Assembly (NCBI GenBank): GCA_026707045.1
Contig: JAPOXO010000090.1
Location: 1 to 64,000 of the forward strand
Direction of reading: 5' to 3'
Length of the DNA: 64,000 nt
Source of the DNA: Gammaproteobacteria bacterium
GTDB taxonomy: Bacteria > Pseudomonadota > Gammaproteobacteria > Pseudomonadales > Azotimanducaceae
Below, one piece after another: positions 46,495 to 57,774 of this stretch (position 1 is its first letter; each line of letters starts with the position of its first letter). Position numbers and translations under genes: made by a program. Below the pieces are notes generated by a model. The model made no database searches. It saw nothing but the letters and a program-made list of their open reading frames with translations, and had not been told where the DNA came from.

Positions 46495-48507
46495 TCAATT
46501 CTCCGAGGGTAGAGGGTTTCGAATGCTTTTTATACGAAACTTGAACCTCTTGTTGGGGTGCAACTTAGGAAACGGCGTAATCTTGAGCTTGTAGTTCTTC
46601 GGCACCATTTCAAGCTCCAAATGGTGAACTAACAGCAATACATTCAAGCTCATTTGCAATTCGACAAATCTTTGGCCGAGGCATGTGTGAGTTCCAACGC
46701 CAAACGGCCTAAACGCACCTGGCTTCTTGTGTTCATCACGAGGAGGAAGATACCTTTCAATGTCAAACTTCAACGGGTCTTTGAAGTTTTCTTCTAAGTA
46801 GTGCGACGCGGTATATGCAACGAGACAGTCTACGTTTGGTGGGACTTCATACCCTCCGATTACTTCTGCATTCATAACGTGTCGCATATGAACAGGTATT
46901 ACGCAGTACAGCCTCATCACTTCCATGACGAATCGCAAAGCTGTGTCGATGTCCGCATTCTTGATTTCATCATGTGAAGCGTAACCATTTGCGAACAATT
47001 GATCTGCTTCCCGCCTCAATTGTTCGAATATCTCCGGTTCAGTCAGCAAACTATAAAGAGAGAAACTGAGCACGCTACCTGCATAGTGACCCGCAATCAA
47101 CGCCGCAATAAGCGCGAAACCAATGTCAGTTTCGGGCAAGAATTGAGGATCTTCAGCATGAAGTTCAAAGATATCGTCTACAAAATCGCGACGTTTCCCT
47201 TCTCGAAGAGCGGGAGAGTGAGCACTGTGGATCGCGGCGTAAAGATCCAGAAGTCTTTGTCGTTTCTTGTTCATGCTCGGCGTTCGGGTCATAAACTTTG
47301 GCAAGAGACCGAATACATTTGCCAGAAGCATTCGAGTTTCCAAAATGAAGAGATCGTCAAAATACCCGGTTATGTCGCTACTCGTTGAAAGTTGACTGAT
47401 TTGTTCTCCAACCATGGCCTGGCAAGCATACTCCCCCATATGCGTCTTGCCGACTGACCAACTCGAAACATGCCTGCCAAATATCTGATAGAGTTCTTGG
47501 ACTCTATCCTCCACCACGGTTCGCGCTGTGCCATCCCGCATGACTTTACGCATGCGGAAGTGTTCCGCACCGTCCATACTGGCCACTGACCGACTGACTC
47601 CCCAGTCTCTCTGGAACTCCTCGATATATTCCTTGCTCCTCAGAAACAGCCTCCCGCGGCGATGAACGATAACATTGGCTTCAGCACCACTAATGACGTA
47701 GGTGGGATTTCTTGCTGGCTTTAGTAGAGCTACTGGTCCATGCTTTCGATGTTGCTCAGCAAAGAACTCAGGAATATTTCCACTCCAAAGGGTTCGGGAG
47801 AACAGACAGTCTTTCCATCCGATCCGGGGAGGGTTTCGCCGAGGCACTACAGTAGAAGTCACAGGAGTCTTGAATGTCGCTTGAACCGCAACGGCAAGCG
47901 ACTGACCAATCAAGTCCATCCGCGACAGGAGTTCGATTCTCTCTTTAACTTCTGCGTATTCCAATGAGTCAAGCCTTGTGGTAAAGACTTCGCATGCATT
48001 CAAAAGCGAAATGATCGAAATTTCGCGAGGATCCGGTATCTCATCACTATTGATGATCGTGAATATTCGACGACGAATGTCTGCAACGTAGTCTTCACCT
48101 TCGGCTTCTCCGCCTGTCTTTCGACGTACCTTTTCAGTACGAACCCAGAAACCACCCTCATCAGAACGAATAATGCCTCGAGATGCCAATCGTTCAAGGG
48201 ATTTGTGGACAAGGTCCTCGGCGTTGACGCCAACCCGTTCCACCCAGTACTTTATCTTGTGACCAGATTCCGACTCCGCAGCTATTTCTGCTAGCGGAGG
48301 GTCCAATATGTCATCATCAAGCGGAGTAGGATCAAGAAGAATCAACGACTCAAGATCTGTATCGATTCGATTGGCGAGAGCCAAGTCCATGAGTACAGCA
48401 CCAGCTGCAACACACGACATACGCCAGTGAGATAAAGGCTCAAAGCTACCGGTGTCTTCGTTGAGCAACACCATGGTAACTTCCTCAAGGAATGTCAATG
48501 GCGACAT
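46495..48507 (-). CDS. GOLPH3/GPP34-cytochrome P450 fusion protein
   Basis: The 670-residue protein starts at ATG 48507, with AGGAG five bases upstream. Residues 3-210 match the GPP34 (GOLPH3) fold: LTFLEEVTMVLL, GAVLMDLALANRID, DDDILDPPLAEIA, KYWVERVG, LERLASRGII and REISIISLLNACEVF all have counterparts in human GOLPH3, which binds phosphatidylinositol 4-phosphate. Residues 230-660 are a cytochrome P450: H316FRMR (helix C), E529VMR (ExxR), F602GVGTHTCLG with heme ligand Cys609. The I-helix reads AGHYAGS (472-478); the CYP51 family has AGHHTSS, so the conserved Thr is Ala. No transmembrane anchor is seen. The overall pattern is closest by eye to CYP51 sterol demethylases. Substrate and the role of the GPP34 part are unknown. 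Confidence 0.9.
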   Translation of the reverse strand: MSPLTFLEEVTMVLLNEDTGSFEPLSHWRMSCVAAGAVLMDLALANRIDTDLESLILLDPTPLDDDILDPPLAEIAAESESGHKIKYWVERVGVNAEDLVHKSLERLASRGIIRSDEGGFWVRTEKVRRKTGGEAEGEDYVADIRRRIFTIINSDEIPDPREISIISLLNACEVFTTRLDSLEYAEVKERIELLSRMDLIGQSLAVAVQATFKTPVTSTVVPRRNPPRIGWKDCLFSRTLWSGNIPEFFAEQHRKHGPVALLKPARNPTYVISGAEANVIVHRRGRLFLRSKEYIEEFQRDWGVSRSVASMDGAEHFRMRKVMRDGTARTVVEDRVQELYQIFGRHVSSWSVGKTHMGEYACQAMVGEQISQLSTSSDITGYFDDLFILETRMLLANVFGLLPKFMTRTPSMNKKRQRLLDLYAAIHSAHSPALREGKRRDFVDDIFELHAEDPQFLPETDIGFALIAALIAGHYAGSVLSFSLYSLLTEPEIFEQLRREADQLFANGYASHDEIKNADIDTALRFVMEVMRLYCVIPVHMRHVMNAEVIGGYEVPPNVDCLVAYTASHYLEENFKDPLKFDIERYLPPRDEHKKPGAFRPFGVGTHTCLGQRFVELQMSLNVLLLVHHLELEMVPKNYKLKITPFPKLHPNKRFKFRIKSIRNPLPSEN

Positions 48508-48835: not shown

Positions 48836-49906
48836 TTGATTAAAACTCCTGTGCAAGCAAAAGAATTCCTGAAAGTTCCTGTGAACTCAGTTACAAACGA
48901 CCGCTATCCCTTTTCGCCTTTCCCCATTGGATGGTTTTGGGTGGAATTCAGCGAAAATGTAAAGAGAGGGCAGTTGTATTCCAAGCAGTGGTTGGGAGAA
49001 ACCATCGTATATTGGCGCGACACCAACGATCAAGTGTGTGTCGCCGATGCGACCTGCCCTCATCTTGGCGCCAACCTGTCTCCAAAACGAGGAGGACGGC
49101 TTAAAAACGGATTGTTAGTTTGTCCGTTCCACGGCTTCAGCTACGATGCGACGGGAGCTTGTGTCAGAACGCACACCGGGCCTCCCACACAAAGACTCTC
49201 CCTAAATACCTACCGCACCCGAGAAACAGGCGGTGTAATCTATGCATGGTGGCATCCGAATCGCATGGAGCCAGATTGGATGATTCCGAACTTCGACGAT
49301 GGAGAGTGGTCACGTCTTATCTACTCTTCTCAAGAGATACAAACCCATCCCCAAGAGACCGCAGAAAACGGAGTCGATCTCACTCACTTGCCGCACGTTC
49401 ACAGTTATTCAGACGTTCAAAGCCTGGGACCTTTGGAAATCGAAGGACCGGTTCTCAAGAATGAGTTCACTTTGACTCGACGTCTAGGGCCCACCGATAA
49501 GCTCTGCATTACTCTCAAAGTGTCGGCTGTCGTGAAGATGTGGGGACTCGGTGTTTCCACCATTGAACCATCGTTTGAAGAGGCGGGCTTGTACGTCCGG
49601 CAGTTTGCATTGTGTACACCCATTGACGGAACAAAAGTGAACTTTGTCATGGCCCTTCAGATGAAAGACATTGGACGTCCCAATGTACTTGCTCCCGGAT
49701 TGGGCTTGATTCCTAAGAGAGTCCTAAATGCTTGGTTCTTACGAATATTCTTCGGTGTCTACCAGAAAGACATTTCTCAAGACTTTGAAATCTGGGAAAA
49801 CAAGAAATACCTTACATATCCTCGGCTAAGTCCTGACGAAAGTTCAATAGTTCGATATCGCCGTTATTGCCAGCAGTTTTACTTGGACTCATTTGAAGAT
49901 CTATGA
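48836..49906 (+). CDS. Rieske oxygenase of the KshA/DAF-36 type
   Basis: The 356-residue protein starts at TTG 48836; a stop codon directly before it and no ATG nearby force a TTG or the GTG at 48851. The Rieske domain has CPHLGAN with Cys74 and His76 and CPFHG with Cys96 and His99 for the [2Fe-2S] cluster. The catalytic domain has ENGVDLTHLPHVH with Asp181, His184 and His189 for the mononuclear iron, and WENKKYL near residue 320. These features are those of 3-ketosteroid 9-hydroxylase KshA, cholesterol 7-desaturase (DAF-36/Neverland) and the bacterial sterol demethylase SdmA. A steroid or sterol substrate is therefore likely but not shown. No ferredoxin or reductase gene is adjacent. Confidence 0.87.
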   Translation: MIKTPVQAKEFLKVPVNSVTNDRYPFSPFPIGWFWVEFSENVKRGQLYSKQWLGETIVYWRDTNDQVCVADATCPHLGANLSPKRGGRLKNGLLVCPFHGFSYDATGACVRTHTGPPTQRLSLNTYRTRETGGVIYAWWHPNRMEPDWMIPNFDDGEWSRLIYSSQEIQTHPQETAENGVDLTHLPHVHSYSDVQSLGPLEIEGPVLKNEFTLTRRLGPTDKLCITLKVSAVVKMWGLGVSTIEPSFEEAGLYVRQFALCTPIDGTKVNFVMALQMKDIGRPNVLAPGLGLIPKRVLNAWFLRIFFGVYQKDISQDFEIWENKKYLTYPRLSPDESSIVRYRRYCQQFYLDSFEDL

Positions 49907-49937: not shown

Positions 49938-52900
49938 CTACGAACTGCGGTCCAACGCTCGTGAAGATTGAGTTAGTCGGGTAGGCATGAGTCCACTGAC
50001 GGACGGCAGTCTCTGGCCAATATGTTTCGACCAGTTCTTGAGTTGCGTGGGCAGAACGAGTAACGCCGGGGTCACGATCAACGTGAGTACAGTCGCAAAG
50101 CTAAGCCCGAACAATATTGCCTGAGACAACGGTACCCAGTATGCAGATACAGGTCCTCCAAATATCCACTGTCTATTAATAAAGTCAATCGAGTTATCTG
50201 TAGCAAGTGGCAGAATTCCAATAATCGTTGTTCCAGTTGTAATAAGAACGGGACGAAGTCGTTGCAGACCCGTCAATACGATGACATCCCGGATGTCACG
50301 ATCTGGATTCTCACGAATACCGGCGTTGAAAGTATCGATTAAGACAATGTTGTTGTTCACCACTATTCCTGCCAAGGTGAGAACTCCAATTCCACTAAGA
50401 ATGACGCTAAATGGCTGACTCGTCAAAAGTAGCCCCAAGAACACGCCAGCAGTGGAGAGAACAATGGCAAGCATCGTGAGGAACGGATGGTAGAAATTGT
50501 TGTAATGCAGCACAAGCAAAACGAACATTAGCAATAGTGCGAAGGAAAACGCTTTGGATAGGTAGGCTTGCGATTCTTGTTGTTCTTCGTCGGTTCCTCG
50601 AAACCGAATGGTCACTCTAGGATCGAATCCTTGCGCGTCTATCCAGTCTTGGATTTCGTTGACTTTGGTGTCTGCTAGAACTCCTGGTGCAACAGCAGCC
50701 CGAACCATGTGCATATTGGATTGGTCTCGGCGTTGCAATGCATCCGATTTGATGCGCGGTTTTCGCTCCACAAATTGAGAAATTGGTACTGCTCCCTTGT
50801 TGGTCATGACCTCGAGGTCGTCCAGAGAGTCCAACCCGCGAGAGGAAGCCGGGAAACGTACTCGAATGTCCAATGCGTCCTCTGCATCGTCGGGTCTGTA
50901 CTCACCCAGTTTGACACCAGTTGTCAGTAGTTGCGTTGCAAGTCCTACCGTCGTTACATCGGCCCCATAGAAAGCGGCTTGGGCTCGATCAACTGAGAGT
51001 TCCCACTCGAGCGCGCCGAGTGGCAAAGTGTCCTCCAGATCGCGCAATCCTTCGAGTTGGTTCTTCATATAGTCTCGCACGGATCTCACGACGGGTTCGA
51101 GAACAGATCGATCCTCCGCAGTGAATTGGAGGGCAATGGGCTTGCCGGGCGTGAGAGTTCCGTGAAACGGAACGACCTCAACGATGATCCCGCTAATTCT
51201 TGAGGTCCGATCTCGAATTTCTTCGAGGATGTCTTCTCCTGAACGTTCCCGTTCGTCGCTGGGAACCAATTCAGTGAAGAAAATTCCGACCACATCGGCA
51301 CTTGCCCCGCCCGAGAACTCAGTTCGAGTCCCCTCGGTTTGTCCGACACCCGCTGTGGACATCATGTTGATGTCCTTTAATCCAACAACCTGGATCAGTT
51401 CACTTTCCACTTCGGAGACTAGGCTGTACGCTTCGTCCGCACTCAAATTTCCCTGCGCGCGTACGAAGAGATTCGCCCACTGCGGATCGTTCTCGTTAAA
51501 GAAAATGACACCGGAATTGTTGGACCCATATAGCCAGAAAATTCCGTAGACCGCGGCCAGTGCTACGACTACCGTTAGCACCGCGTGTTTCACAGCGAAG
51601 GAAAGAACCTTTGCGTAAAGATTCTTGAATCCCTTCAATGCAGAAAGGTCAACATTCCACATGAGATCAACAGATTTCTTGGAATCCACCGTGCCTGCCT
51701 TGTTGCCCATCAAGAGATTGCCAAAAGCAGGAGCGAACAGTAGGGCATAGAAGAGAGCACCAACCATGACTAAGAACACTGTCTTGGGAAGATAGGACAT
51801 GAAGGCACCAGCTGTTCCCGGCCAAAACAGCAATGGAAAGAACACCGCCAATGTGGTGGACGTAGATGTGATGACCGGACGTGCCATCCGAGTTGCCGCT
51901 GAGGAATACGAATCGGCGCTTGAAACTCCGTCGGCGAGCCGCCGGTCGGCATCCTCCGTAACAACGATCACTCCATCAATCAACATGCCCAATCCAAGCA
52001 GCATTCCAAACATAACCATGAAGTTGAAAGACTGCCCGACAAGCCATAGGAAAATCAGGGCAAAGAGAAAGGCAACTGGAATGGCAGTTCCAACCACAAT
52101 GCTCGTACGAAAGCCCATGGTGGCAAGCACCACAATCATCACTAGAACCAGAGCGGTGATCATGTTCCCCTGCAACTCAGTGACCAGTCGCTCAGCGAAC
52201 GAAGCGAGGTTCGAAGAAACAAACACTCTCATGCTGTTGGGAACTTCGGATTGAAAATCTGCTACAAGTGCTTTGACCTCTTTTGCGGTATCAATCAGGA
52301 AAGCCTCGGGGCGACGATAGACGAAAAGCGTTATCGACTGCTCGCCATTAGCGTGCGAGTAGCTGACCCGATCCTTGAAAGTACGACGAATCGATGCAAT
52401 GTCACCGAGCGTGACCACTTTGTCCGAGTCGGCAAAGATAGGTATGTCCAGCAAGTCGTCTGGCTCCTCGACGACGCTCGGAATATTTATCGACAAGCTG
52501 CCTCGACCCGAGAGCAACGACCCGGCAGGGATCAATCGATTGTTCCTATTTATTGCACCGATCAATTGTTCCGCCGACAGCTGGTAGGCGTGCATCTGAG
52601 TTGGGTCGATGGCGATCTCGAGAAACTCTTCTCGAGCACCTTGAACGCTGACCCGTTGGACGCTAACAATTGTCTCAATCCGGTCCTTCAATCCTAGAGC
52701 TGTTCGATAGAGAAGCAGTTCCGGCGCGCCACGTCCGACAAGATTGACTTGCAGCACTCGACTGTTGTGTCCACCTGTTTCCGTGATTATTGGTTCATCA
52801 GTGGTTGTAGGAAATTCTTGCCGAGCTCGATTGACTGCTTCACGCAGGTCTGCTCTGGCTATGTCGATGTCCACGTGAGACTTGAACACGACACCAAGGA

Positions 52901-53171
52901 CTGCCATGTGTTCAGCCCCAGTGCCACTGACTTCCTTGATCCCGTCGACGGCCTTGAGTTCGACCTCCATGGGTGCAACAAGAAGCCGCAAAGCATCGTC
53001 AGGAGAAATTCCCTCGTTGGGAATGGTGACTTGGAACGTAGGAATGTCAACCTTTGGTTCGTTCTCGACTGGAATGGCCAATCTGGCGACGATTCCAAAT
53101 ATCAAAATCGTGAACATGACCAGAAGTGTCGTTCGCGTATGGCTTATTGCAAACTCGACAATTCTTCTCAT
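49938..53171 (-). CDS. RND-family efflux permease
   Basis: The 1077-residue inner-membrane pump has 12 hydrophobic helices in two sets of six with two large periplasmic loops. The N-terminal helix starts MRRIVEFAISHTRTTLLVMF. TM4 carries GLGMLIDGVIVVTED with Asp399 and Gly400, where AcrB has Asp-Asp; the metal-type CzcA also has Asp-Gly. TM10 has LAGIVVNNNIVLID, where AcrB has a Lys; this is a common variant. It is 48 bases downstream of its membrane fusion protein gene. No outer-membrane TolC gene is present. Substrate unknown; the neighbours suggest a lipophilic compound. Confidence 0.92.
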   Translation of the reverse strand: MRRIVEFAISHTRTTLLVMFTILIFGIVARLAIPVENEPKVDIPTFQVTIPNEGISPDDALRLLVAPMEVELKAVDGIKEVSGTGAEHMAVLGVVFKSHVDIDIARADLREAVNRARQEFPTTTDEPIITETGGHNSRVLQVNLVGRGAPELLLYRTALGLKDRIETIVSVQRVSVQGAREEFLEIAIDPTQMHAYQLSAEQLIGAINRNNRLIPAGSLLSGRGSLSINIPSVVEEPDDLLDIPIFADSDKVVTLGDIASIRRTFKDRVSYSHANGEQSITLFVYRRPEAFLIDTAKEVKALVADFQSEVPNSMRVFVSSNLASFAERLVTELQGNMITALVLVMIVVLATMGFRTSIVVGTAIPVAFLFALIFLWLVGQSFNFMVMFGMLLGLGMLIDGVIVVTEDADRRLADGVSSADSYSSAATRMARPVITSTSTTLAVFFPLLFWPGTAGAFMSYLPKTVFLVMVGALFYALLFAPAFGNLLMGNKAGTVDSKKSVDLMWNVDLSALKGFKNLYAKVLSFAVKHAVLTVVVALAAVYGIFWLYGSNNSGVIFFNENDPQWANLFVRAQGNLSADEAYSLVSEVESELIQVVGLKDINMMSTAGVGQTEGTRTEFSGGASADVVGIFFTELVPSDERERSGEDILEEIRDRTSRISGIIVEVVPFHGTLTPGKPIALQFTAEDRSVLEPVVRSVRDYMKNQLEGLRDLEDTLPLGALEWELSVDRAQAAFYGADVTTVGLATQLLTTGVKLGEYRPDDAEDALDIRVRFPASSRGLDSLDDLEVMTNKGAVPISQFVERKPRIKSDALQRRDQSNMHMVRAAVAPGVLADTKVNEIQDWIDAQGFDPRVTIRFRGTDEEQQESQAYLSKAFSFALLLMFVLLVLHYNNFYHPFLTMLAIVLSTAGVFLGLLLTSQPFSVILSGIGVLTLAGIVVNNNIVLIDTFNAGIRENPDRDIRDVIVLTGLQRLRPVLITTGTTIIGILPLATDNSIDFINRQWIFGGPVSAYWVPLSQAILFGLSFATVLTLIVTPALLVLPTQLKNWSKHIGQRLPSVSGLMPTRLTQSSRALDRSS

Positions 53172-53219: not shown

Positions 53220-54305
53220 TTATTCGAAGTCAACAGATACGCGTTCGCCTTCGACAACAAGCCCTTGCCCTACAGTGATAATTGATGCCCTTTCTGGCAG
53301 TCCAGCAACCCAAATGCCATCTGGGTCTTCTCGGACAATGTTGACTTTTCGAAATTCGACAACTTCATTTGCGGTCACAATTTTGACTCCAAGGCTTCCT
53401 TCCTGATCCAGCATTGCAACTGAAGTAGGGACTTGGTGAGCAAGTGTTGAGTCGACGACGATTTCGAGGGTTGCACTCATTCCAGAACTGATTGCAAAGT
53501 CATCATTCGACAATTCGATTTCTACTCGGAACGTTCTGGAATTTACTTCAGCCTTTTTGCTCACAAACGTCAATTGGCCTTGACGAGTCTTCCCGTCGGG
53601 TAGTGTTACAGCTGCACCACTTCCCAGCTCAAGATTGGAAATGTATTCTTCAGTTACGAATCCCTGGGCGTATACGGGATTTAGAACTAGTAGGGTCGCA
53701 CACGGCGAGCCAAGACTCATGAAGTCCCCAACGTTCGCATGAACCATGTCCACGACTCCATCTATTGGAGCTCTAATCTTGGTATTCTGAAGTTCGATTT
53801 CTGCAGCGAGCAACGCCTGTTTGGATGCGCTTAACTGTGCTTTCTTCCGCGCAGTGTCCAGCTCCTGCTCGAAACCACGTTCTGTCAGAGTGATAACACT
53901 TTCGTACTCCTTCTCTGCGAGGTCTAGCGCATCCTTTGCAACATCTACTAGAGCTTGTCGATCTTTTAAATCCAATTCGCAAAGTACATCGCCCTTCGAT
54001 ACAGTGTCACCGATTTGGACGTGCCGAGCAGTTAGCTGGCCTCTGGTTTGTGCCGGAACAGTAGCCTGATTTCGATCCACAATGTGTCCGCGCAGGACAA
54101 TGGTGTCGTCTTGGGGAATAGCCGTGCTTCTTTTGGCTCGTACTAGAACTGCTTTGCCTGATGTCGACTCGGTGTCTCGAATCTCTTTCGCCTCGGCGAG
54201 TGAAACTATCGGGTCGGACGGAGATTCAGTGAGTATTCCTGATAGAAGCCAAACGACGACTGCCACAATCACGACAGTAACTGTCAGAATTCTGGTCCTG
54301 TTCAT
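53220..54305 (-). CDS. RND efflux membrane fusion protein (HlyD/AcrA family)
   Basis: The 361-residue protein is anchored by one N-terminal membrane helix (about 7-25) without a lipobox Cys. Next come the lipoyl-like segments ATVPAQTRGQLTARHVQIGD and KIRAPIDGVVDMVHANVGDF, a helical hairpin (about 120-175, DALDLAEKEYESVITLTERG), and beta-barrel and membrane-proximal domains (about 210-361). It joins the RND permease to an outer-membrane channel. It is the first gene of a two-gene minus-strand unit with the permease and lies divergent (283 bases) from the BVMO gene. Confidence 0.93.
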   Translation of the reverse strand: MNRTRILTVTVVIVAVVVWLLSGILTESPSDPIVSLAEAKEIRDTESTSGKAVLVRAKRSTAIPQDDTIVLRGHIVDRNQATVPAQTRGQLTARHVQIGDTVSKGDVLCELDLKDRQALVDVAKDALDLAEKEYESVITLTERGFEQELDTARKKAQLSASKQALLAAEIELQNTKIRAPIDGVVDMVHANVGDFMSLGSPCATLLVLNPVYAQGFVTEEYISNLELGSGAAVTLPDGKTRQGQLTFVSKKAEVNSRTFRVEIELSNDDFAISSGMSATLEIVVDSTLAHQVPTSVAMLDQEGSLGVKIVTANEVVEFRKVNIVREDPDGIWVAGLPERASIITVGQGLVVEGERVSVDFE

Positions 54306-54588: not shown

Positions 54589-56547
54589 GTGTTGATGAAT
54601 CCAAGCAAAGTTCTTCAATCCTCAACCAATGAAAAAATTAGAGACTGCCTCGAGCACGCTCACGTACCTGCTCTCATGTGCTCGCTAGTCCATTTGACCG
54701 GTGATATTGAGTTACTTCGTGGAGACATTCGGCCATACGTCGTACCTATGGGCAATCCCAACCAATCCATCTCTGAAGAAGCGAAGTCGAAGATCGTCAA
54801 TCTTGCTTTGGAAGTTGTCTCAAATTTTCGAGACGGACAAATAGCTGTCGAATCCGATGTTTCAACACATGTACCAGAAATGACTAATTTCATTACTGGA
54901 GAGAAGTTATCGGAGGAATATTCCCAATTTGCCGTAGCAGAGCTCGCAATCGACGGATCTAGCGCTTACAACGTTTCCGGTTTGACATCTATACCTCTGG
55001 ATCAGCGAGAAAAGTTCAAGGTTGCAATAATTGGAGCAGGCATGTCCGGAATTCTGGCAGCAATTCGTCTGAAACAAGCTGGAATCCCGTTTGTCGTTCT
55101 CGAGAAGAACTCTGATGTAGGGGGAACGTGGTTCGAAAATCGATATCCCGGATGTCGCGTAGATAGTCCGAACCATGTTTATTCTTATTCTTTTGCACCC
55201 AAAGATTGGCCACAACACTTCTCGGACCAAACCGTCCTACTCGACTATTTTCAAAGTGTAGCTAAAGAGCATGACCTCAGGACGAGTATTCGATTTCAAA
55301 CCGAAGTCACCGAGATGCGTTATTGCAACGATACTGCGCTATGGACTCTGAATATCTCAACCGAGGCACGTGAGGAGCAATTGACGGTTAACGCCGTCAT
55401 CGTTGCTGTAGGCCAGCTTAATCGTCCAAAGCTGCCCGAGATTGAAGGAAGAGACAAGTTTCGTGGACCGAGCTTTCACTCGGCAGAATGGGATACTTCG
55501 GTCGAATTCGCGGAAAAAACCGTTGCCGTCATCGGAACAGGTGCTTCCGCGTTCCAATTTACCCCTCATATTGTCAAACAAGCGAAGTCAGTCGACGTTT
55601 TCTTGAGGACTCCTCCTTGGGTTGCTATCAATCCTCTATATCAAGCCCACATTACTGACCAGCAGCACTGGCTACTAAATAATGTCCCGTTCTATGCAAC
55701 TTGGTTTCGATTCTCGATGTTTTGGACGTCAGGCGAAGGGCTTCTATCGATGGCCCGGTGCGACCCCAATTGGGATCGAACCCGAAACTCCATAAGTGAA
55801 GCGAACGACAGGCTGCGTGAAATGCTTACACGCGGCATAGAGACGCAACTCGACGACCGACCAGACCTAATCAGCAAACTGACTCCTACTTACCCGCCAG
55901 CCGCCAAACGCATGCTAATCGACGATGGTGAATGGTATCGTGCTCTCAAGAGTCGGAACGTACGAGTCGTAGACACGAAGATCGAATCTATCAATGAAAC
56001 GGGGATTCAGCTTGTCGATGGATCGAGATTCGATTACGACATCATTCTTTACGGCACTGGATTTCATGCCAACCAGATTCTCTATCCGATGAAGATTTAT
56101 GGTTCCGACGGCCAGGAACTGCGTTCGAGTTGGGGAGATGATCCACGAGCCTATCTAGGAATAACAATTCCCAATTACCCAAACATGTACACCATGTACG
56201 GACCAAATACCAACATTGTGGTCAATGGCAGCATTATTTTCTTTTCAGAATGCGAAATGCTCTATATCATGCAGAGCATTCGCCATTTGCTGGTTAACGA
56301 GTACGCCTCGATGGATTGCGACCCAGCCTTCCACGATTCGTATAACGAGCGAATTGATCGAGAGAATCTTGGAATGTCATGGGGTGCCTCAGACGTCAAC
56401 AGCTGGTACAAGAATGCAAATGGACGTGTGACGCAATGCTGGCCTGGAACGCTTATTGAGTTTTGGAGACAGTGCAGAGACTTCGACCCGCATGCCTATC
56501 TATGGAACAATCCGTCGGAGACAGGAAATGCGAAAGATTTAGGCTAG
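54589..56547 (+). CDS. Flavin Baeyer-Villiger monooxygenase (HAPMO-like)
   Basis: The 652-residue protein has an N-terminal extension of about 145 residues, as in 4-hydroxyacetophenone monooxygenase. The FAD Rossmann motif GAGMSG is at 149-154, the BVMO fingerprint FRGPSFHSAEWD at 291-302 (FxGxxxH(S/T)xxWD), and the NADP motif GTGASA at 316-321. Class B flavin enzymes of this type insert oxygen beside a ketone to give an ester or lactone, using NADPH and O2; several act on steroids or aromatic ketones. Start could be GTG 54589 or ATG 54595. It is upstream of the methyltransferase gene (192 bases) on the same strand. Confidence 0.9.
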   Translation: MLMNPSKVLQSSTNEKIRDCLEHAHVPALMCSLVHLTGDIELLRGDIRPYVVPMGNPNQSISEEAKSKIVNLALEVVSNFRDGQIAVESDVSTHVPEMTNFITGEKLSEEYSQFAVAELAIDGSSAYNVSGLTSIPLDQREKFKVAIIGAGMSGILAAIRLKQAGIPFVVLEKNSDVGGTWFENRYPGCRVDSPNHVYSYSFAPKDWPQHFSDQTVLLDYFQSVAKEHDLRTSIRFQTEVTEMRYCNDTALWTLNISTEAREEQLTVNAVIVAVGQLNRPKLPEIEGRDKFRGPSFHSAEWDTSVEFAEKTVAVIGTGASAFQFTPHIVKQAKSVDVFLRTPPWVAINPLYQAHITDQQHWLLNNVPFYATWFRFSMFWTSGEGLLSMARCDPNWDRTRNSISEANDRLREMLTRGIETQLDDRPDLISKLTPTYPPAAKRMLIDDGEWYRALKSRNVRVVDTKIESINETGIQLVDGSRFDYDIILYGTGFHANQILYPMKIYGSDGQELRSSWGDDPRAYLGITIPNYPNMYTMYGPNTNIVVNGSIIFFSECEMLYIMQSIRHLLVNEYASMDCDPAFHDSYNERIDRENLGMSWGASDVNSWYKNANGRVTQCWPGTLIEFWRQCRDFDPHAYLWNNPSETGNAKDLG

Positions 56548-56739: not shown

Positions 56740-57774
56740 ATGGGCATAGTCAAAACTACGAAAAGACTCAAGGCTGTTTTTCAAGAGGGCAACTCTATCC
56801 ATCGAATGCAAGACTTCGAGGAACGAAGCACACAAGCATTGCTGCAGTCTGGCGATTCGGATCAGTATGACCATGCGCAAACTGTCAAGAGCTACTACGA
56901 ACTATGTACCGAGATCATGGTATTTGGATGGGGCGAATCCTTGCACTTTGCTCCATTGTCTCCACATGAGAGTTTGGAGGAATCCAAAATCCGGCACCAA
57001 CGTCTGATGATTTCGAAGCTGGAGTTGGAAAAAGGAATGACAGTAGTAGACATAGGTTGCGGCATTGGCGGTCCAATGCGCCGAGTAGTTCGTGAAGGCG
57101 ATGTCCGAGTGGTCGGTATTAACATAAATGAGCTGCAGCTGAATAAAGCCAAGAAACTGAACTCAGAGGCAGGCCTGGACGACCGAGTCGATTACGAATC
57201 GTGCGATTTCATGGACATGAGCTCTATTGAAGATGAAACTTTCGATCGCGGATATGCAATCGAGTCCACATGTCATGCACCGGACAAGCTTAGAGCTTTC
57301 AAGGAGATATTTCGAATTTTAAAACCGGGTGCTTTACTGTGGGGTCAGGAAATGTGCATGACCGAGAAGTTTGATCAGAATGACAATCGGCACGCAGAAA
57401 TCAAGCGCGCACTCATGAAGGGTATAGCATTGAATGAGATCGCTAGTTTTCGGGAAGTCAATCAAGCACTCGAGTCGGCAGGATTTCAGGTACTGGAAGG
57501 CATGGACCGCGACATCCAAGAAGGACCGTCTACACCCTGGTACTACCCAATGGCGAATCAACACGGAACGGTGGGAAACTTCCTGTTAAGGATCCCTGCT
57601 GGGCGATCGGCGGTAGTAGCAGGACTAAGAATTGCTGAGATATTTCGTTTTTTTCCAAAAGGATCAGCAGATGTGGTTCGTCTCATGAACGATACCGCAT
57701 TTGCCTACGTTGCAGGCGGCGAAACTGGTATTTTCACACCACTCTACTGCTTTCTGGCACGCAAGCCGTTGTAG
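56740..57774 (+). CDS. Sterol C-24 methyltransferase-like (SMT/ERG6) SAM enzyme
   Basis: The 344-residue protein matches eukaryotic sterol methyltransferases along its length. Region I is MVFGWGESLHF (60-70; yeast YEYGWGSSFHF), motif I is VVDIGCGIGGP (102-112), region II is GYAIESTCHAPD (171-182; yeast VYAIEATCHAP), FRILKPGALLWGQEMCMTEK (191-210) and region III TPWYYP (265-270) follow. The C terminus GGETGIFTPLYCFLARKP (327-343) is the SMT C-terminal domain. Yeast Tyr81 and Glu82 of region I are replaced by Met60 and Val61, so substrate or product may differ. SMT transfers methyl from S-adenosylmethionine to the sterol side-chain C24. True bacterial SMTs are rare. No SMT substrate pathway is seen in the window. 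Confidence 0.88.
   Translation: MGIVKTTKRLKAVFQEGNSIHRMQDFEERSTQALLQSGDSDQYDHAQTVKSYYELCTEIMVFGWGESLHFAPLSPHESLEESKIRHQRLMISKLELEKGMTVVDIGCGIGGPMRRVVREGDVRVVGININELQLNKAKKLNSEAGLDDRVDYESCDFMDMSSIEDETFDRGYAIESTCHAPDKLRAFKEIFRILKPGALLWGQEMCMTEKFDQNDNRHAEIKRALMKGIALNEIASFREVNQALESAGFQVLEGMDRDIQEGPSTPWYYPMANQHGTVGNFLLRIPAGRSAVVAGLRIAEIFRFFPKGSADVVRLMNDTAFAYVAGGETGIFTPLYCFLARKPL

Follow-up and report, generated by a model that had tools for sequence, protein, structure and literature searches.

The window, which is the whole 64,000-nucleotide stretch of DNA that was analyzed, encodes a 670-residue protein that combines a GPP34 (GOLPH3-type) domain with a cytochrome P450 domain. The fusion recurs as a full-length protein in bacteria assigned to seven phyla, where a gene for a KshA-type Rieske oxygenase, a sterol C-24 methyltransferase (SMT), or an RND transporter often lies nearby. 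On balance, and with modest confidence, we read it as a sterol-tailoring P450 that the GPP34 domain would hold at the inner membrane near an export pump.

A single gene encodes a GPP34 domain and a cytochrome P450

The initial annotation gave the exact coordinates of the gene (Table 1) and left its strand unnamed; the open reading frame starts with ATG and lies on the minus strand. The proposed two-domain organization was borne out by Pfam, in which both domains scored above their cut-offs (GPP34, PF05719, residues 8-210, 96.3 bits versus a cut-off of 29.1, E = 3e-27; p450, PF00067, residues 240-647, 144.7 bits versus a cut-off of 22.8, E = 5e-42). The GPP34 half used as a single sequence had no match in the PDB at E ≤ 1; a profile of 32 fusion N-terminal domains matched human GOLPH3 (3kn1, E = 2e-16) and yeast Vps74. 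The Pfam match and the recovery of these two proteins place the N-terminal domain in the GPP34 family. NCBIfam offered no name above cut-off for the fusion protein. The AlphaFold2 model had a mean pLDDT of 86.6 and a pTM of 0.80, with pLDDT values below 50 at residues 131-137 and in the linker at residues 216-219. Searches with the whole model (Foldseek, VIA-align) gave lists filled by the P450 half, with no GOLPH3 among the matches listed.

Table 1. Positions of the fusion gene, of its domains and motifs, and of neighboring genes in the window
Feature	Positions	Strand	Evidence
GPP34-cytochrome P450 fusion protein, 670 aa	46495..48507	-	ORF, Pfam, homologues, AlphaFold2
GPP34 (GOLPH3-type) domain, residues 8-210	47878..48486	-	Pfam, profile search, charge
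Linker, residues 211-239, confidence minimum at 216-219	47791..47877	-	Domain limits, AlphaFold2
Cytochrome P450 domain, residues 240-647	46567..47790	-	Pfam, profile and fold matches
I-helix AGHYAGS, residues 472-478	47074..47094	-	Alignment with other P450s
Heme-ligating Cys609 in FGVGTHTCLG	46681..46683	-	Alignment of 85 fusions
KshA-type Rieske oxygenase, divergent from fusion	48836..49906	+	Homologue near 50/79 named fusions (best 80 of 417)
RND (AcrB-type) transporter permease	49938..53171	-	Homology and neighborhood survey
HlyD-type membrane-fusion protein of RND pump	53220..54305	-	Homology and neighborhood survey
FMO-like flavoprotein	54589..56547	+	Homologues near 3/79 named fusions (best 80 of 417)
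Sterol C-24 methyltransferase homologue	56740..57774	+	Sterol_MT_C, E = 5e-15

Recurrence and taxonomic spread of the fusion

The searches recovered 88 full-length fusion ORFs, defined as spanning >600 of the 670 residues of the query, from 84 loci; removal of three duplicate loci left 85 non-redundant fusions. These 88 copies, including a paralogue in the same genome, exclude an assembly artifact or a frameshift joining two genes, and the reading of the frame as a single gene stands. The paralogue (L034:12579-14579, contig G000:C135) is 33% identical to the window's fusion, and no member of the RND, Rieske, or SMT families of the window turned up within the 20 kb read around it. It is the only one of the 85 fusions that keeps a canonical Glu-Thr pair in the I-helix, which may be the ancestral state.

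Genome surveys, as proposed in the initial annotation, gave the fusion from many genomes and also standalone GPP34 and P450 relatives. In the window's order, the full-length fusion was present in 4 of 194 genomes, all four belonging to the window's family (Azotimanducaceae); within that family, a fusion was detected in 9 of 61 genomes, the G233 copy being two matched pieces of one frame. Among 398 genomes of the phylum, scored for up to three candidates per genome, only the window's own genome had the fusion at E ≤ 1e-80, and G015 had a standalone P450 relative. In a named collection, 79 loci were obtained from the best 80 of 417 stretches, and each of them has a full-length fusion. By title, these loci belong to Pseudomonadota (40), Acidobacteriota (22), Chloroflexota (7), Rhodothermota (3), Gemmatimonadota (2), Binatota (1), and Latescibacterota (1), with three unranked. 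The labels are MAG titles, and short contigs (e.g., L060, 7 kb) may be misbinned; safer calls are provided by long records titled Terriglobia (5.1 Mb) and Rhodothermales (2.7 and 2.8 Mb) and by Gammaproteobacteria-type lineages.

Judging from record names, the fusion-bearing bacteria appear to be mostly sponge associated. The names lac_sponge and Porisulfidus point to a sponge origin, and the bin name "Plut" is presumably the coral Porites lutea. The bin prefixes RHO, COS, and APA would fit sponges named in the available text of PMC8163846.

Two fusion genes are present at four loci (L055, L070, L074, and L096), and three of these four pair a member of clade A, which is the window's clade, with a member of clade B. 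L162 seems to represent the contig of L055 again; in it, the two fusion copies flank an outer-membrane factor (OMF)-HlyD-RND set. The window's genome also contains a standalone GPP34 gene (L001:1465-3250), which adjoins a gene for a protein resembling, by eye only, a sterol desaturase/fatty-acid hydroxylase. Two other standalone GPP34 genes (L041:7978-8640 and L042:7482-8138) show conserved synteny with genes that, judged by eye, resemble those of tyrosine/homogentisate catabolism.

The GPP34 half is acidic and does not conserve the arginines of the PI4P site

The initial annotation had suggested that the GPP34 domain docks the P450 on an anionic or glycosylated lipid membrane or on a partner, by reference to the binding of phosphatidylinositol 4-phosphate (PI4P) by GOLPH3. 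According to the available text of PMC12494035, the residues of the GOLPH3 PI4P site are R90, R171, N172, and R174. In the profile alignment with GOLPH3, the R90 position was Ala, Val, Gly, or Ile in 85/85 fusions and never basic, R171 fell in an insertion missing from the bacterial profile, and the R174 position was basic in one fusion of 85. An arginine directly before the missing insertion (position 95) was present in 59/85 fusions; it might in part stand in for the absent arginines and leaves some doubt as to the loss of the site. The GPP34 half was strongly acidic (median net charge of -18, range -24 to -10, in 85 sequences; -17 over residues 1-216 of the window's protein), with a median of +8 for the P450 half of the same 85 sequences. 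Since the site arginines are not conserved and the domain is strongly acidic, docking on PI4P appears unlikely, and a role as PI4P effector was rejected from the R90, R171, and R174 positions.

The domain could instead bind another lipid headgroup, anionic or glycolipid as PI4P is for GOLPH3, and anchor the P450 with no protein partner. Homology to GPP34 proteins, the conserved residues W28, R47, W88, R106, and R147, the position of Arg95 beside the place of GOLPH3 R171, and the alignment of the low-confidence loop at residues 131-137 with a GOLPH3 hairpin are consistent with this explanation, and a lipid pocket different from the PI4P site is possible. The same substitutions and the same negative charge argue against it, and we regard it as unlikely. 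The available text of PMC12494035 reports that the acidic face of GOLPH3 binds basic tails of client enzymes. Because the domain is acidic and GOLPH3 uses its acidic face in this manner, we favor docking on a protein rather than on an anionic lipid. Of the ideas in the initial docking proposal, a partner fits the acidity of the domain, and charge-based docking on an anionic membrane is argued against by it. That GPP34 is a docking module of some kind is fairly likely.

Transporter, Rieske oxygenase, and methyltransferase genes often lie near the fusion

Neighborhoods were counted in the 44 of the 79 named loci (best 80 of 417) whose sequence extends at least 8 kb beyond the fusion in both directions. 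The families found near the fusion were RND (36 loci), HlyD (35), KshA-type Rieske (35), SMT (24), outer-membrane factor (24), and an amine-oxidase-like flavoprotein (13), neighbor genes of related genomes being non-independent observations. At least one of the RND, SMT, and Rieske families was present at 43 of the 44 loci, and one locus had no cluster gene. As a control, 20 chosen regions of 20 kb from five fusion-bearing genomes contained a single match each for RND, SMT-like (at 32% identity), ERG24-like, and FMO genes, whereas Rieske, HlyD, OMF, and flavoprotein genes were absent; all 20 regions came from the window's family, so that the control does not cover other phyla. The FMO-like flavoprotein of the window is a doubtful member of the cluster because of its low count among the named fusions (Table 1).

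Of the 79 named loci (best 80 of 417), 19 have the Rieske gene directly upstream of the fusion and in the same orientation (median gap, 16 bp), and another 13 have it on the opposite strand, no more than 1 kb away. Contig L060 combines the fusion with a flavoprotein and homologues of the SdmB (73%) and SdmA (76%) of the sterol operon described below. At one Chloroflexota locus, an MMPL protein with sterol-sensing (E = 2.6e-13) and Patched domains (L124:13285-15762) is encoded 1.3 kb from the fusion, beyond an SMT gene, and the locus also has two ERG4/ERG24 proteins; four further loci have a protein of this MMPL cluster, the domain scan covering L124. The amine-oxidase-like flavoprotein family (L047:8883-10253 and relatives) is common to many fusion loci and to the sterol operon of G157, in which its gene adjoins that for the squalene epoxidase-cyclase.

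Sterol capacity of fusion-bearing genomes and the probable substrate of the P450

The window's genome carries a predicted sterol operon on another contig (G000:C118; L049:1378-11846). It encodes a squalene epoxidase-oxidosqualene cyclase (SE/OSC) fusion above Pfam cut-offs, a CYP51, an ERG4/ERG24-family protein, an SDR, and an SdmA-like Rieske protein (NF052579, E = 5e-123, 410 bits versus a curated cut-off of 600), and it adjoins a 773-residue HMG-CoA reductase-GHMP kinase fusion. In the window's family, the SMT family PF08498 was detected in 7/9 fusion-bearing genomes versus 0/52 others (Fisher, 8e-8, kinship ignored), being absent from fusion-bearing G204 and G233. A long-frame cyclase was found in 4/9 versus 0/52 genomes; a strong cyclase match in an ordinary frame, read as hopene-cyclase-like, occurred in three other genomes of the family and a weak match in one.

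Fifty fusion genomes, corresponding to 50 of the 79 loci, were searched for a close SE/OSC (at least 57% identical across the cyclase or its matched portion). It was present in 18, as one full-length ORF in 15, cut by the contig end in one, and as neighboring ORFs in two, and lacking in 32. Since a close SE/OSC occurred in 14/23 genomes with a clade A fusion versus 4/27 in which the locus had clade B alone, clade A tracks sterol synthesis better than clade B. Unless the gene is merely missing from incomplete MAGs, genomes without the enzyme cannot make sterols de novo; many bacteria with clade B fusions would therefore have to acquire sterols or use another substrate.

A sterol or steroid lipid is probably the substrate of the P450. 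This assignment, which has moderate support, draws on the gene neighborhood, the co-occurrence with SMT, the SdmA/SdmB homologues of L060, the sterol-sensing MMPL protein of L124, the C118 operon, and the presence of the sterol P450s CYP46A1 and CYP51 among the best VIA-align rows of the P450 model. There is also a published precedent, the RND-superfamily BstA, whose periplasmic domain binds 4-methylsterols according to the available text of PMC10942540. Against it count the 32 genomes lacking a close SE/OSC, the five of nine family fusion genomes without a cyclase, the long-flank locus without cluster genes, the two genomes without SMT, and the extradiol-dioxygenase-like genes and fold matches considered next.

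It is unlikely that the substrate is some other lipid or natural product (carotenoid, quinone, or terpenoid) exported by the RND pump. OSC is absent from many fusion genomes, AcrB-type pumps are broad, and RND pumps export many compounds; the fold of the P450 does not single out sterols, since the non-sterol CYP102A5 heads the Foldseek matches and the terpene P450 CYP170A1 is level with sterol P450s in VIA-align. The Sterol_MT_C methyltransferase, the transporter with a sterol-sensing domain, and the links to ERG4/ERG24 and SdmA/B argue against such a substrate. Degradation or detoxification of host steroids, in which the P450 would act with a KshA-type Rieske oxygenase as in catabolism and the RND pump would expel the products, is less likely still. 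Among PDB entries, the Rieske oxygenase is closest to KshA, extradiol-dioxygenase-like full-length genes occur in 4/9 family fusion genomes (below the family's cut-off), and the nearest standalone P450 relative lies among CoA-pathway-like genes (ORFs judged by eye). However, the window's genome had no extradiol-dioxygenase match at E ≤ 0.001, no family recurring in at least 5 of the 81 loci looks catabolic by eye, and in known systems genes of the SMT, SdmA/B, and ERG24 types serve biosynthesis.

The P450 half has a conserved heme site and an altered I-helix

The ExxR (residues 529-532) and FGVGTHTCLG motifs of the initial annotation were confirmed, and ExxR and the heme-ligating cysteine are conserved in 85/85 non-redundant fusions. 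By contrast with the A(G/A)x(D/E/H)T motif of other P450s, the fusion I-helix reads AGH-YxGS, AS(I/V/L)-YLG(S/D), or near variants. The acid-alcohol pair of canonical P450 monooxygenases is missing in 84/85 fusions, a Tyr occupying the place of the acid with a one-residue deletion; Tyr is followed by Thr in 15 of these 84. An acid or His plus Thr was kept in 24/25 aligned standalone P450s and in 3/3 CYP51 sequences. It is very doubtful that the P450 half has become a non-oxidizing sterol-binding or scaffold module, as the lost pair and the deletion might suggest, in view of the heme Cys and ExxR retained in all 85 fusions and of the catalytic activity of P450s such as CYP152 and P450eryF, which lack the pair. 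The reaction may be side-chain desaturation, hydroxylation, or peroxo-type carbon-carbon cleavage, the last of which would suit the lack of the acid-alcohol pair.

The resemblance to CYP51 noted initially holds at the level of profile matches, in which CYP51s came first, but not in the tree, which places the fusion P450s elsewhere. They also lack AG-x-HT, which we take to be the CYP51 I-helix signature, and a separate CYP51 is encoded elsewhere in the window's genome (E = 7e-105 to the solved Methylococcus capsulatus CYP51). The tree and this separate gene rule out the fusion as the sterol pathway's own CYP51. The P450 tree included 25 of 26 standalone P450 loci, those with an ORF of at least 350 residues; all trees were built in quick mode, with SH-aLRT support only and long-branch warnings. 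Two standalone P450s, from G204 and G233 (L159:9486-10796 and L160:4345-5979), nest within the fusion clade, which suggests secondary loss of GPP34; their I-helix is further altered, with K-R replacing the acid-alcohol pair.

Proposed function of the fusion protein

The P450 would oxidize a sterol or steroid-like lipid together with the partner Rieske oxygenase and, at many loci, the SMT. Through contacts with basic loops or tails of partners in the inner membrane, the acidic GPP34 adaptor would retain the enzyme on the cytoplasmic side of that membrane. The likeliest partner would be the co-encoded RND or MMPL-type transporter, to which the finished lipid could be handed for export. That the neighboring transporter handles the product or the substrate is rather likely. 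In a bolder version, the fusion would belong to a new class of enzymes in which GPP34 tethers a P450 to an export pump of its own. The P450 would have given up the acid-alcohol pair for ferric-peroxo cleavage of carbon from a sterol aldehyde made by the adjacent Rieske oxygenase, and the cluster would move between phyla inside sponges. This version is improbable; if true, diverse symbionts would produce or finish unusual sterols credited to animals, including those used as fossil biomarkers.

According to the available text of PMC10070321, the origin of sponge sterols is disputed, as is whether 24-isopropyl steranes mark animals or bacteria, and that of PMC7074536 states that the complexity of the holobiont complicates the search for enzymes modifying the sterol core. 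The cluster offers candidates for such modification that recur across phyla; among them is the fusion itself, which may carry out an unknown step of sterol chemistry in sponges. It also gives GPP34 a testable bacterial role, and its P450s form a family with a conserved, non-canonical oxygen-activation site.

Comparison with known systems

A GPP34-P450 fusion was not described among the papers listed in literature searches (open-licence PMC papers; sponge P450 and sterol papers by title), and the initial statement that no characterized protein with this domain pair is known agrees with these listings. GPP34 proteins were presented in 2025 as previously undescribed in prokaryotes, according to the available text of PMC12402492. 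The Streptomyces protein SCO4440 of that study likewise has a bacterial GPP34 domain but is GOLPH3-like and tied to peptidoglycan changes, with no P450 mentioned in that text. GOLPH3 and Vps74 resemble the fusion by a profile match over most of the GPP34 domain and by acidity, as on the client-binding face of GOLPH3; the fusion differs by its non-conserved PI4P-site arginines, its fused enzyme, and its bacterial origin. The CYP51-ferredoxin of M. capsulatus, also a bacterial sterol P450 with an extra domain, is among the best sequence and structure matches; however, its extra domain is a redox partner, and the separate CYP51 of the window's genome matches it far more closely.

Of the sterol genes of symbionts, the core operon and the methyltransferases are already known. 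The window's genome was compared with the msb cluster of a Melophlus sponge symbiont (PMC7074536) and the Ircinia steroid clusters (PMC9531527), with which, as far as the available texts go, it shares SDR, Rieske, C14 reductase, CYP51, and bifunctional squalene epoxidase-cyclase genes. The epoxidase-cyclase fusion was discarded as a novelty, since it corresponds to MsbE (PMC7074536) and to the fused SMO/OSC of PMC10070321 in the texts available. Those of PMC7074536 and PMC9531527 do not mention the GPP34-P450/Rieske/SMT/RND cluster, SMT itself being known in both systems. The sterol and hopanoid transporters BstA and HpnN, as described in the available text of PMC10942540, resemble the present system in placing an RND-superfamily transporter beside sterol genes, whereas most transporters found here are pumps of the AcrB type, accompanied by HlyD and TolC-like proteins.
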